Source: Ignatzschineria sp. RMDPL8A (GTDB taxonomy: Bacteria > Pseudomonadota > Gammaproteobacteria > Cardiobacteriales > Wohlfahrtiimonadaceae). From it: a stretch of DNA of 64,000 bases. The DNA lies in NCBI RefSeq assembly GCF_029815055.1, contig NZ_JAPPWA010000002.1, positions 1,240,001 to 1,304,000 of the forward strand, in the 5' to 3' direction. Positions 47,412-51,712 of this stretch are shown in pieces. Every line of letters begins with the position of its first letter. Position 1 is the stretch's first letter. The notes beneath the pieces were generated by a model. The model saw only the letters and a list, made by a program, of their open reading frames with translations. It made no database searches and was not told where the DNA came from. The translations under genes were made by a program, and so were the position numbers.

Positions 47412-48314
47412 TTACTCTTCGCTACCGTGATCGGTTTGAGCGAGCACCCAATAATGATTTTGATTGTGTGCGTCCATATAAGCGAAAAATTCCTCAGATT
47501 GATAGATGCGTTTTATTGCCTTAGCCCAATCACTCTGTTCCATCCCCTCATTGACGACCACTAAAATCTCAAGCTCTGGAATGATATTTTCTTGAAGCAA
47601 TCCTCTTTCAGAAGGAATCCCCGCTGAATAGACAATGCTCCCCGGAATCACAGCGTAATCGATATCGATCATAATGCGTGGAATGGTCGCGGAATCCACC
47701 TCAATAATCTCTAAATTAAGCGGGTTAGAGGTGATGTCATTGTGGGTTACAAGTAGTGGCGAATCGGACTCTTTTAAAGTGATCCAACCGGCTTTTGCAA
47801 GCAAATTATAGGCCCGCGCCGCATTTGATGGATCTTGCGGGATGGCGATTTTCATCTTAGGGGTAATAGCATCAAGGGAGCTGTATTTATCGGAAAAGAT
47901 CGCTGCAGGCACCGAGGGGACGGCAACCACCGGCTTTAGATGAGCATTACGCTCTTTATTAAACACCTTCATATAGGCGGAATGTTGCGCGACGGTTAGG
48001 TCAACGCCTTTTTCGATCGTGCCTATGTTCGATTCCAAGAGATTGGAAAAGTTAACGAGTTTTATCGTATACCCTTCACGCTCTAAAATGGGTTTTACCG
48101 CGTCATTAAATAGATCGTTATAAGGCCCAGGCGATACGCCCACACGAAGGGTCATTTTAGTGAGCTCTGATTCGGCTGAATTTTGATTGCCACAGCTGAT
48201 TAAAACAACGCTTGCGATGAGTAACAATAGCCCTTTAAAGATGGCTTTTGAGGTTAAGTTAAATAAAGGACGTAAACGAAGCGCACCTTTTGGCGCGCGA
48301 TAAAAAATAGCCAT
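47412..48314 (-). CDS. NlpA/MetQ-family substrate-binding lipoprotein
   Basis: A 300-residue lipoprotein of the NLPA family (D-methionine-binding MetQ and relatives). An unusually long n-region (about 25 residues) leads into a hydrophobic core and the lipobox LISC (Cys41). The mature domain has RVGVSPGPYNDLF, DLTVAQHSAYM, KIAIPQDPSNAARA and DYAVIPGSIVYSAG, typical of the family. AGGAGA lies eight bases before the ATG. No metN or metI neighbours are present, so it is an orphan binding protein or works with a distant transporter. Its leader contains a poly-Cys ORF, so cysteine or cystine is a plausible ligand; this is inference. Confidence 0.88.
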   Translation of the reverse strand: MAIFYRAPKGALRLRPLFNLTSKAIFKGLLLLIASVVLISCGNQNSAESELTKMTLRVGVSPGPYNDLFNDAVKPILEREGYTIKLVNFSNLLESNIGTIEKGVDLTVAQHSAYMKVFNKERNAHLKPVVAVPSVPAAIFSDKYSSLDAITPKMKIAIPQDPSNAARAYNLLAKAGWITLKESDSPLLVTHNDITSNPLNLEIIEVDSATIPRIMIDIDYAVIPGSIVYSAGIPSERGLLQENIIPELEILVVVNEGMEQSDWAKAIKRIYQSEEFFAYMDAHNQNHYWVLAQTDHGSEE

Positions 48315-48429
48315 GGGAAAATCTCCTAGTTAGGCAGTGAATAAAGAGGTTGTGAATGGTTTGAGTTTAATGAAAAGTTAAATATGAATTTAAACGGGGA
48401 CGATCTAATCGATTGTCAGCGCATGCCCA

Positions 48430-48455
48430 TTAAGCCCTCGTAAAGAGAGGCTTAA
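48430..48455 (-). promoter_or_regulatory. Leader hairpin upstream of the NlpA-type gene
   Basis: TTAAGCC (48430-48436) and GGCTTAA (48449-48455) form a perfect 7-bp stem, extended by two more pairs around a bulge. It lies between the leader ORF stop and the structural gene. The adjacent GCATGC (48421-48426) can instead pair with GCGTGC of the leader ORF. Confidence 0.5.
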
Positions 48456-48476
48456 GATAAAAACTCTGTTCGATTG

Positions 48477-48515
48477 AAAAAATTATGCGTGTGAGAAACG
48501 ACAACAACAGCACGC
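48477..48515 (-). terminator. Candidate attenuator hairpin over the poly-Cys codons
   Basis: On the minus strand, GCGTG (48515-48511) pairs with CACGC (48491-48487). The loop contains the four cysteine codons, and ATAATTTTTT follows. The stem is short, so terminator activity is uncertain. Confidence 0.4.
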
Positions 48516-48578
48516 CATCGATTTATTGCAAACCGTGGTGGAGAGGGCGTGGTGATGAATGAATGTCGCAGTTGTCAT
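48483..48578 (-). CDS. Leader peptide ORF with four consecutive Cys codons
   Basis: A 31-codon ORF on the minus strand, 168 bp upstream of the NlpA-type lipoprotein. It starts MTTATFIHHHALSTT and continues VCNKSMACCCCRFSHA to a TAA. The run TGC-TGT-TGT-TGT occupies 48512-48501, with a further Cys codon six codons earlier. Only a weak GAG-type ribosome site precedes the ATG. Poly-Cys leader ORFs that act as cysteine-responsive attenuators are known from mycobacteria; a similar role here is inferred. It is too short to judge by composition alone. Confidence 0.55.
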   Translation of the reverse strand: MTTATFIHHHALSTTVCNKSMACCCCRFSHA

Positions 48579-48806
48579 GAGGGTCTCAAAAAAGTTTCTC
48601 AACGATATAAAGGAAGTTACCTCTTAACAAATAGCATAGCTTTTTAACCGTTGCAAACAGTACTTAATTGTTTTAACTATTAAAGAGTAGATTGACAGAA
48701 GAAGGTGGCGCAAAATTGATGCTACGGAATGCGCGATTTTCTACACAATAAAATGCTATGATAGCGAGAGTTTATACCGTGTTGACAGGTTAGAAGAGGA
48801 GGCTTC

Positions 48807-48971
48807 ATGCTGTTTTTTGCCATCTTAATTATTTTATTGCTCGCATTTTTTATCGATCCTGTGGTGTTTATGGGAGCGCTTTTATTACTGGTAATGGCGT
48901 TAATTACCATTCGATTATTGGCTAAAAAAGAGGAGCGGAAAGAGGCAGAGCGGTCAGAGCATCTTGAGTGA
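48807..48971 (+). CDS. Small membrane protein, 54 residues
   Basis: A short gene that is easily missed. AGAGGAGG (48795-48802) lies four to five bases before the ATG, one of the strongest ribosome sites in the window. The peptide has two hydrophobic stretches (about 2-16 and 19-38) separated by an Asp-Pro, then a charged tail (KKEERKEAERSEHLE). It ends 50 bp before mepA on the same strand, so they may be co-transcribed. I do not recognise the family. Confidence 0.75.
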   Translation: MLFFAILIILLLAFFIDPVVFMGALLLLVMALITIRLLAKKEERKEAERSEHLE

Positions 48972-50332: not shown

Positions 50333-51712
50333 TTATGCGCGACCGCGTAACATACTAATGTAGGTGGGTTTAAGCGCCATGGTTTTCATTACCCAGCTAA
50401 TCCACAGCTCTTCGAGCGGTGCGATAATGCCCGGGAATGATGGGGTTAAGTTGTTGTGATAATCGAACTCAACGAGCATTGCTTGACCAAGACGGGTAAT
50501 CATTGGGCACGAGGTATAACCATCGTAATGAGCGTCGGAGGTTTTTCCTTCAAGCTCTGCCACTAAATGATCCACTGCAACGGGCACCTGCCATTTAACC
50601 GATGCCGCAGTTTTCCCTTTCGGAACCCCTGCGATATCACCCACACCAAATACGTTGCGATAGCGAACGTGACGAAGCGTTGATTTTTCAACTTCCATCC
50701 AGCCATCAAAGGCCCAGATGCCATCTTTCCACGCAAGCGGGCTATAACGCACAGGATCAGGCGCACGCATTGGTGGAATCACGTTGATAAAATCGTATTG
50801 ATATTCTTCGGTCCCTTCAGGCTTTGCAAACGTTGCAATGCGCTTACCCGGGTCGATCGCAATCAGATCGCGGTCGTGGTTGATATGAATATCACGCTCT
50901 TCAAAGAGCATTCTGACTTTCTCAGAAACAATCGGCACACTGAAGAGGGCTTTATTGTTTGAGTTATAGATGATTTCCGCTTTGCTGCGGTTGCCGCGAC
51001 GGGTTAAATAATCTTCGGTGATGAAGGTATATTTAAGCGGTGCGCCGGCACACTTCATCTCAGTATTGGGGCGATGGAAGATACCCACGCCGCCATTGTC
51101 TGCAAATTTAGACATCTGTTCCCAGGTGCGTTTTGCCGACTCAGGGCCGTGATAGATACTGCCCATCCCGTTTTGACCGATTAAGGACTCATCCATTCCT
51201 TCGATCGCTGCGTAATCGAGTTTTAATCCCATGGCAACAAAGAGATAGTCATAGGCAACGGTTTTCCCGCTTTCAGTGACGACTTTGTTCGCATCAGGAT
51301 CGATTTCAGCCACACGCTCTTCGATTAAATCGATGCCTTTTGGAAGGTAATCTTTAGTTTTTGAAACCGGGTAATCACCGGGCTTAATGCCTGCTGCAAC
51401 GAGGGTAAAACCAGGTTGATAGTAATGCTCTTTACGGGCATCAATGATGGTGATTTTCGCGCCTTCTAAACGGTCAGCTAAACGTGATGCTGTCGCTAAT
51501 CCTGCAGCACCGGCTCCAGCGATTACGATATTAACGCTGGTTTTAACTTTTTTAACGGAAGGTTTGCTTAATAGAACGGTTGCGCCCGTACCTGCAGCTC
51601 CAAGTACGACAGAACCTGCTCCAGCAGCCCCAAGATAGCGTAATGCATCGCGGCGGCTTGGATTGTGAGCAGCTTCCGGAGATTGGACATCTTTCTCTTT
51701 TTGATCTGTCAT
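50333..51712 (-). CDS. sqr: Sulfide:quinone oxidoreductase with Tat-like signal
   Basis: A 459-residue flavoprotein. A twin-arginine segment (PSRRDALRYLGAAG) precedes a hydrophobic region, so export by Tat is likely. The FAD fold begins with VIAGAGAAGLATASRLA. Redox cysteines C221 (MKCAGAPLKYTF) and C402 (YTSCPMITRLGQAML) match those needed for sulfide oxidation, and GVGDIAGVPKGKTAASVKWQ is the second FAD signature. It would oxidise sulfide and pass electrons to quinone at the membrane surface. Flavocytochrome c sulfide dehydrogenase flavoproteins are the nearest alternative. Its upstream region has a long inverted repeat. Confidence 0.88.
   Translation of the reverse strand: MTDQKEKDVQSPEAAHNPSRRDALRYLGAAGAGSVVLGAAGTGATVLLSKPSVKKVKTSVNIVIAGAGAAGLATASRLADRLEGAKITIIDARKEHYYQPGFTLVAAGIKPGDYPVSKTKDYLPKGIDLIEERVAEIDPDANKVVTESGKTVAYDYLFVAMGLKLDYAAIEGMDESLIGQNGMGSIYHGPESAKRTWEQMSKFADNGGVGIFHRPNTEMKCAGAPLKYTFITEDYLTRRGNRSKAEIIYNSNNKALFSVPIVSEKVRMLFEERDIHINHDRDLIAIDPGKRIATFAKPEGTEEYQYDFINVIPPMRAPDPVRYSPLAWKDGIWAFDGWMEVEKSTLRHVRYRNVFGVGDIAGVPKGKTAASVKWQVPVAVDHLVAELEGKTSDAHYDGYTSCPMITRLGQAMLVEFDYHNNLTPSFPGIIAPLEELWISWVMKTMALKPTYISMLRGRA

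Follow-up and report, generated by a model that had tools for sequence, protein, structure and literature searches.

Does the short, cysteine-rich open reading frame (ORF) ahead of an orphan NlpA-type lipoprotein gene in Ignatzschineria sp. RMDPL8A sense the supply of cysteine, and how might it pass this signal on to the gene? The locus lies in a stretch of 64,000 nucleotides of contig NZ_JAPPWA010000002.1 (positions 1,240,001 to 1,304,000), which is called the window below. Our main reading, to which we give a probability of roughly 60 %, is that the ORF is a gene for a cysteine-sensing leader peptide and that stalling of the ribosome at scarce charged tRNA-Cys would let the lipoprotein gene be expressed. 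The features of the locus are collected in Table 1.

Table 1 Features of the leader and of the lipoprotein gene (positions in the window)
Feature	Position	Strand	Basis
Candidate promoter TTGCAA-N17-TATTTG, TG one base before the -10	48628..48656	-	By eye
Leader ORF, 31 codons, MTTATFIHHHALSTTVCNKSMACCCCRFSHA	48483..48578	-	ATG at 48578, stop codon 48485-48483
Candidate regulatory Cys codons TGC-TGT-TGT-TGT	48501..48512	-	One of six distinct TGY x4 sites in the genome
Run of six T directly 3' of the leader stop codon	48477..48482	-	Sequence
Long-range stem (predicted): 48607-48594 with 48499-48484 (interrupted) and 48576-48571 with 48505-48500	48484..48607	-	Predicted fold
Hairpin 1, GCGTG/CACGC; unsupported as a structure	48487..48515	-	Folding tests
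Hairpin 2, TTAAGCC/GGCTTAA arms	48430..48455	-	-11.9 kcal/mol, z -4.4
C-rich, G-poor stretch, possible Rho loading site	48327..48404	-	C minus G composition
Shine-Dalgarno sequence AGGAG of the lipoprotein gene	48323..48327	-	Sequence
NlpA-family lipoprotein gene, orphan by eye	47412..48314	-	PF03180, E 3.4e-51

The leader ORF and the gene behind it

The poly-Cys ORF of 31 codons was found on the minus strand as the earlier note had described it, and its ribosome-binding site is indeed weak. It is separated by 168 bases from the lipoprotein gene, which has the same orientation. The promoter in Table 1 is a guess, as a consensus promoter scan did not report this site, nor any other at the right place; the scan gave three sites against 4.0 in shuffled sequences, with two weak ones further upstream (48856-48828 and 48785-48758). 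When the leader was compared with Rfam, no family reached its gathering score, and the only two matches below that score were at chance level and on the opposite strand. A plasmid copy of the locus was looked for, no match was obtained, and the idea was rejected. An ORF for a small hydrophobic protein of 54 aa lies on the plus strand (48807-48971) between the leader and a murein endopeptidase gene; it has no family match in NCBIfam or Pfam.

The gene downstream was correctly described as that of an orphan NlpA-type lipoprotein: its product matches PF03180, and by eye no ABC partner is seen among the ORFs listed for 44-53 kb. Three NCBIfam models match the protein, each below its cut-off, and the curated MetQ model gives 108.5 bits with a cut-off of 374. 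The best matches among solved structures are the GNA1946 lipoproteins, which we take to be MetQ of Neisseria. The ligand-site residues of MetQ were not found in the lipoprotein, in which NGN is replaced by PGS in the motif alignment; PGS is also present in eight of the nine orthologous loci and PGG in the ninth, and four of the seven paralogues in the genome have NGN at this place, with TGN, PGN and NGG in the others. The Asn of NGN that is replaced in the lipoprotein is presumably a methionine-binding residue. The gene preceded by the four Cys codons belongs to the MetQ/NlpA family and is a candidate for sulfur amino acid uptake; in the TcyP and metN leaders described below, the codons do match the amino acid to which the downstream gene is related. 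Elsewhere in the window, on the minus strand, a sulfide:quinone reductase-like protein is encoded (50333-51712), which scores below the cut-off of a type III selenoprotein model (211.9 of 525 bits).

The genome (2.18 Mb in three contigs) was scanned on both strands for runs of Cys codons. Only six distinct sites carry four or more TGY codons in succession (eight overlapping places; the reversed pattern gives two). Two of these are in-frame runs in short ORFs, namely the one studied here, ahead of the NlpA-family gene, and that in MKMSRHSTQRINIAHLAANVCCCCCPISRSC, ahead of a TcyP-like gene; three others lie opposite long ORFs of 190, 427, and 286 aa, on the antisense strand, and one is out of frame within an ORF of 530 aa. 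A census of runs of three or more, which covered 100 of 115 places, yielded 94 distinct sites. Of these, 82 lie within ORFs at least 100 aa in length, and 12 are outside of such ORFs. Four of these 12 sites belong to three leader ORFs ahead of uptake genes. Three of the other eight have no in-frame start, one is in a short ORF antisense to a gene start, and one is antisense to a gene end. Another, reading CCCGC, falls in a short ORF in sense orientation that precedes, by about 180 bases, a gene that we take to be dapB-like (L216) and that has no sulfur link; Cys runs are therefore not exclusive to sulfur genes.

G002, the only other genome of the genus found, is listed as the same species and is 96 % identical over 849 aligned bases. 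It keeps the leader ORF, the 96 bases of which differ by three substitutions (T3A, R27H, and a silent one), with the Cys run intact. No substitution is seen in the 61 bases upstream of the ATG or in the 106 bases that precede the gene (48420-48315), and changes are present at 10 of the 40 bases in the region of hairpin 2 (48460-48421) and at 11 in the first 150 bases of the gene. In the nine orthologous loci of genera g3 and g4 (44-50 % identity), no run of three or more TGY codons occurs in the 700 bases upstream. A wider comparison of the upstream regions of 31 NlpA-type loci revealed a TGY run, besides the locus studied here (L001, L002) and that of G002 (L020), only in L027, at -635. The frame and the run, the conservation of which the earlier note had named as a check on its idea, are kept in one genome only, of the same species, and are missing before the nine orthologues from other genera. 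ACATRTA/TAYRTGT-like repeats were seen by eye near the start in promoters of several lipoprotein relatives of g3 and g4 and of metN genes of g4 (L004, L008-L013, L021, and L222-L225), and none were seen by eye before the lipoprotein gene studied here; they are possibly sites of a protein regulator used in place of a leader.

These data also bear on the view that the Cys run arose by chance in an ordinary 5' region, or that another frame counts, in which CTG-TTG-TTG reads Leu-Leu-Leu within a GTG-started ORF of 27 codons. The weak ribosome-binding site, the missing leader before the nine orthologues, and the existence of the other frame are in line with this view. We nevertheless hold it to be unlikely, given that the genome has so few runs of four, two of them before uptake genes, and that a one-base deletion in G002 shortens the other frame while the Cys frame is kept.

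Predicted structures and possible outputs of the leader RNA

The Cys codons had been placed by the earlier note inside a hairpin (hairpin 1) followed by a T-run. The complementary letters and the T6 are present, but as a structure the hairpin is no better than shuffled sequences (-3.1 kcal/mol vs -4.25 +/- 1.94, z +0.6), it forms with a probability of 0 to 0.02 when the leader is folded, and it was missing from the output of a terminator scan that covered loops of 3-8. Hairpin 1 was rejected as a terminator on the grounds of this z value and probability. The alternative fold between GCGTGC over the Cys codons and GCATGC downstream did not survive either: whichever of the six ribosome states was modelled, its folding probability is 0 in both genomes, and it was rejected as a switch. 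The second hairpin that had been proposed holds, with no U-run behind it; in G002 its arms are unchanged and its loop and flanks are changed (-7.2 kcal/mol).

The dominant fold up to the T-run, absent from the folds of the earlier note, is predicted to be a long-range stem that pairs the start of the ORF with the Cys codons and ends one base before the T-run. Folding of 48634-48476, from the presumed start to the T-run, gave -33.6 kcal/mol (z -2.0), an energy reached by 9 of 300 shuffles; in G002 z is -1.5, and 25 of 300 shuffles were as low. In the full leader the predicted probability of the stem is 0.97 here and 0.39 in G002. These models lend weak support to the existence of a long-range stem before T6.

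Masks representing a ribosome at Cys2, Cys4, or the stop codon abolish the long-range stem in the models; a mask at Cys1 mostly does not. Occupation of the Cys region, which the earlier note had proposed to compare by folding, could not be told from occupation of the stop codon in the cases of Cys2 and Cys4, and hairpin 2 and the accessibility of the Shine-Dalgarno (SD) sequence of the lipoprotein gene barely shifted; the SD is unpaired with a probability of 0.22-0.27 across six ribosome states and two genomes. Since the masks fail to separate the stalled from the stop state, a clean switch does not emerge from folding alone. Base pairs between the Cys region and the downstream RNA were no stronger than in shuffles (78 of 500). 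Structures alternating with the position of the ribosome, combined with an intrinsic terminator or with SD masking, were not found in this leader. The leader may work like the known Cys leader attenuators, but because a supported alternative structure was tested for and not found, this assignment is only provisional.

In the proposed mechanism, scarcity of charged tRNA-Cys would cause the ribosome to stall in the four-Cys run of the leader ORF, and the stalled ribosome would alter the downstream RNA such that the lipoprotein gene is expressed. With enough cysteine, the ribosome would read through and leave at the stop codon, and the leader would go back to its repressing state. The likeliest output, which is a guess, is that the long-range stem ending before T6 would be the OFF structure and that a stalled ribosome would block it. 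The main alternative output would be Rho termination in the C-rich stretch.

In the Rho-dependent version, in which sensing is the same, Rho would load on the C-rich RNA, which is little paired, once the ribosome has left at the stop codon, and would terminate transcription ahead of the gene; a stalled ribosome would somehow prevent this. C minus G in the C-rich stretch is at the 99.8th percentile of the 78-base windows in the window, a value reached by 2.8 % of 168-base stretches, and the stretch falls in the 106 bases that are identical in both genomes. The leader of the TcyP-like gene is likewise C-rich right after its stop codon (95th percentile), where by eye no terminator is present; yet 19.5 % of stretches reach the value of that leader. 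The C-rich stretch of the lipoprotein leader, moreover, begins about 80 bases past the stop codon and would therefore be left uncovered by a stalled ribosome. We consider Rho a less probable output than attenuation by a leader structure, with perhaps a small share of the odds.

Leaders before the TcyP-like and metN genes

The leader before the TcyP-like gene, MKMSRHSTQRINIAHLAANVCCCCCPISRSC, is an ORF of 31 codons with CCCCC and a strong SD, GGAGAG, and TTGCAA-N17-TATAAC was seen by eye ahead of it. It ends 181 bases before the carrier gene, the product of which shares 35 % identity, over 451 aa, with TcyP of E. coli, a protein annotated as a cystine/sulfocysteine:cation symporter. The leader is also present, with one changed residue, in G002 and in the MAG locus L092, which is perhaps from the same genome as G002. 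All 18 genomes of the family have a TcyP match, and the Cys-run leader is found only in the genome studied here, in G002, and in L092. A screen for ORFs shorter than 90 aa that contain at least three Cys and a CC or CxC motif revealed no Cys-run leader in the 600 bases upstream of 20 TcyP loci from 16 genomes of the three other genera of the family; a 62-aa ORF at -513 in L075 passed the screen and was left uncounted, and L093 is a fragment without upstream sequence.

When the leader peptide was compared with 369 genomes of the class, it gave, besides its own genome, only weak matches (89 genomes at E up to 10, the best at 0.002), and a screen of 29 further loci from such matches for short ORFs with Cys runs gave no ORF that we would call a leader with a suitable gene behind it. 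At E 1e-60, TcyP itself was found in 9 of the 369 genomes; a search with the E. coli protein matched six of the 369, none of them new. Three of the eight other TcyP loci of the class, all from one genus, have Cys ORFs, one has a five-codon MSRCC ORF, and four have none. The three, from family f106 (L124, L127, and L128), have a TcyP homologue 33-34 % identical to ours with Cys-terminated ORFs upstream. The first of these ORFs reads [MV]KR[GE]LHYNQ[NS]SSLFG[CR]CC-stop, thus ending in GCCC or GRCC. A second, tandem Cys-rich ORF ends in CCIWRCC-stop in two of the genomes, and in L128 its Trp codon has become a TGA stop before the last Cys pair. L129, from the same order, carries MSRCC-stop, five codons in length, 72 bases before its TcyP gene; this is possibly a minimal Cys leader.

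A third leader in the same genome, the Met/Cys ORF MNRSIMMMCCCSMCCCAMNSYTQTIPDNPPYIRDIPDD (beginning with MNRSIMMMCCCSMCCCAM), is preceded by a good SD sequence, CGGAG, and runs into metN, so that 8 bases are shared by its stop and the start of metN. Judged by eye, metN is followed on the same strand by metI and by two metQ-like genes, with an acyl-CoA dehydrogenase-like gene (L212:3714-4913, minus strand) lying between metI and the metQ-like pair. In the family, metN is present in 17 of 18 genomes, and 17 loci were scored, one per genome, the fragment L236 being dropped. An upstream ORF with a Met+Cys count of six or more (start Met included) was found at 15 of these loci, in three genera; examples are MKKLMSMMCCCEMRV, MQMLMSMMCCCSMQM, MKNLMTMMCC-stop, MCKMMKNPMIQMIMCCCILT, and MSMMIPRLMMTSRMLCSMARCC. 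The Met+Cys count was unmatched in 300 shuffles at ten of the 17 loci, matched by 1 at one locus, by 4-5 at two, and by 12-18 at two; L233 and L234 did not rise above chance, as 58 and 92 of the shuffles reached their counts. Nothing was seen upstream of the metN paralogues L238 and L239. As metN is only 66-74 % identical to ours outside the genus, the Met/Cys codons stay while the rest drifts. Of eight other metN loci in the class, three lack a candidate ORF and the rest showed nothing convincing; L242 (MGKCLCCNLMIPDACYK) is perhaps a metN leader of the class outside the family.

At six metN loci of genus g4, the codons ATGATGTGCT of the Met-Cys region form base pairs with the metN SD region, all in a single register. 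In this register 88.3 % of 60 cells are paired, compared with 16.7-70 % in six slid versions, and a consensus fold gives the same ten pairs. The pairing energy was beaten by 25, 24, 24, 114, and 150 of 500 shuffles at five loci (without L225), so that two of the five are not beyond shuffles. The 5' side is invariant in g4; two-sided changes are therefore lacking, and the letter-shuffle control says nothing. Such pairing with the metN SD was not seen in g1 (424 of 500 shuffles) or at five g3 loci (184-455 of 500).

Translational attenuation of the g4 metN type, in which Met/Cys codons pair with the SD region and a stalled ribosome would free the SD, offers a further conceivable output for the lipoprotein gene. 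The single register in g4 and the ten pairs recurring in its consensus fold argue for the principle, whereas the invariant 5' side and the absence of the pairing in g1 and in the five g3 metN loci weaken it. In the leader of the lipoprotein gene, pairing with the start region is worse than in most shuffles (449 of 500 as low) and the accessibility of the SD hardly changes. SD masking was rejected for this leader on these grounds, and SD pairing is disfavoured as its output; we rate it as very improbable.

With its sister leaders before TcyP and metN in this genome, the recurrence of the metN leaders, and the ORFs of f106, leaders with Cys and Met codons seem to be a real theme among genes for the uptake of sulfur amino acids, and the lipoprotein leader is the third and weakest case of it. 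The DNA itself shows the ORF with its Cys run, where it lies, that a second genome of the species has it as well, and the two sister leaders; we infer translation of the ORF, stalling as the signal, and the direction in which control works. Sensing of Cys-tRNA by the lipoprotein leader, the core of the earlier note, is likely in view of the sister leaders, which support it indirectly together with the conservation of the metN leader; the terminator and the alternative fold with which it had been combined fail. Going further, the family may run sulfur amino acid uptake through Cys/Met leader peptides, as may an unrelated family, such leaders having arisen several times with different outputs, among them SD masking of metN in one genus; the chances of this broader view seem to us evenly balanced.

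Relation to known cysteine leaders and significance

Polycysteine short ORFs of mycobacteria are called a cysteine-responsive attenuator in the title of a paper of 2020 by Canestrari et al.; they are reportedly leaderless and placed on biosynthesis operons. They resemble the leader described here in being short upstream ORFs with a run of Cys codons. They differ in being leaderless and tied to biosynthesis, whereas the leader described here lies in a gammaproteobacterial 5' leader before an uptake lipoprotein gene. Leader peptides of cys genes of Mycobacterium and Propionibacterium and of cbs of Bifidobacterium were predicted computationally (Seliverstov et al. 2005, PMC1262725). These leaders have, as here, Cys runs near the stop codon and no conserved terminator hairpin, and the authors suggest Rho; they belong to another phylum and, unlike ours, to cys operon and cbs genes. 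In Rhodobacterales, the motif uORFC-8-2 was predicted computationally before cysS (PMC8632094). It is likewise a proteobacterial upstream ORF with tandem Cys codons, these lying inside a stem with a U run at the end, and it differs in having two Cys codons, cysS as the target, and two prominent stems.

The leader metL (MSTTSDRTPATEATTTPGARCMCRRMCAF) before metNIQ of Streptomyces lividans is described as methionine-dependent in its source (PMC8079986). It has, like the metN leaders described here, mixed Met/Cys codons before metNIQ and lacks a typical terminator; it differs from them in being leaderless and from Actinobacteria. A literature search that mostly did not cover subscription papers gave, among the matches listed, no title or abstract on a Cys leader of tcyP, nlpA, or metN in gammaproteobacteria. 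Judging from the accessible parts of these sources, Cys-codon leaders so far reported or predicted are those of Actinobacteria and those before cysS in one alphaproteobacterial order.

The leaders described here suggest that a shortage of cysteine at its ribosomes leads the bacterium to turn on the uptake of sulfur amino acids. If this is true, Cys leaders on gammaproteobacterial genes for the uptake of cystine and methionine, and on an orphan NlpA gene, would extend this kind of control to uptake. The lipoprotein leader would then also provide a clue to the substrate, cysteine or a cysteine compound, of an NlpA subfamily with a ligand-site motif unlike that of MetQ.
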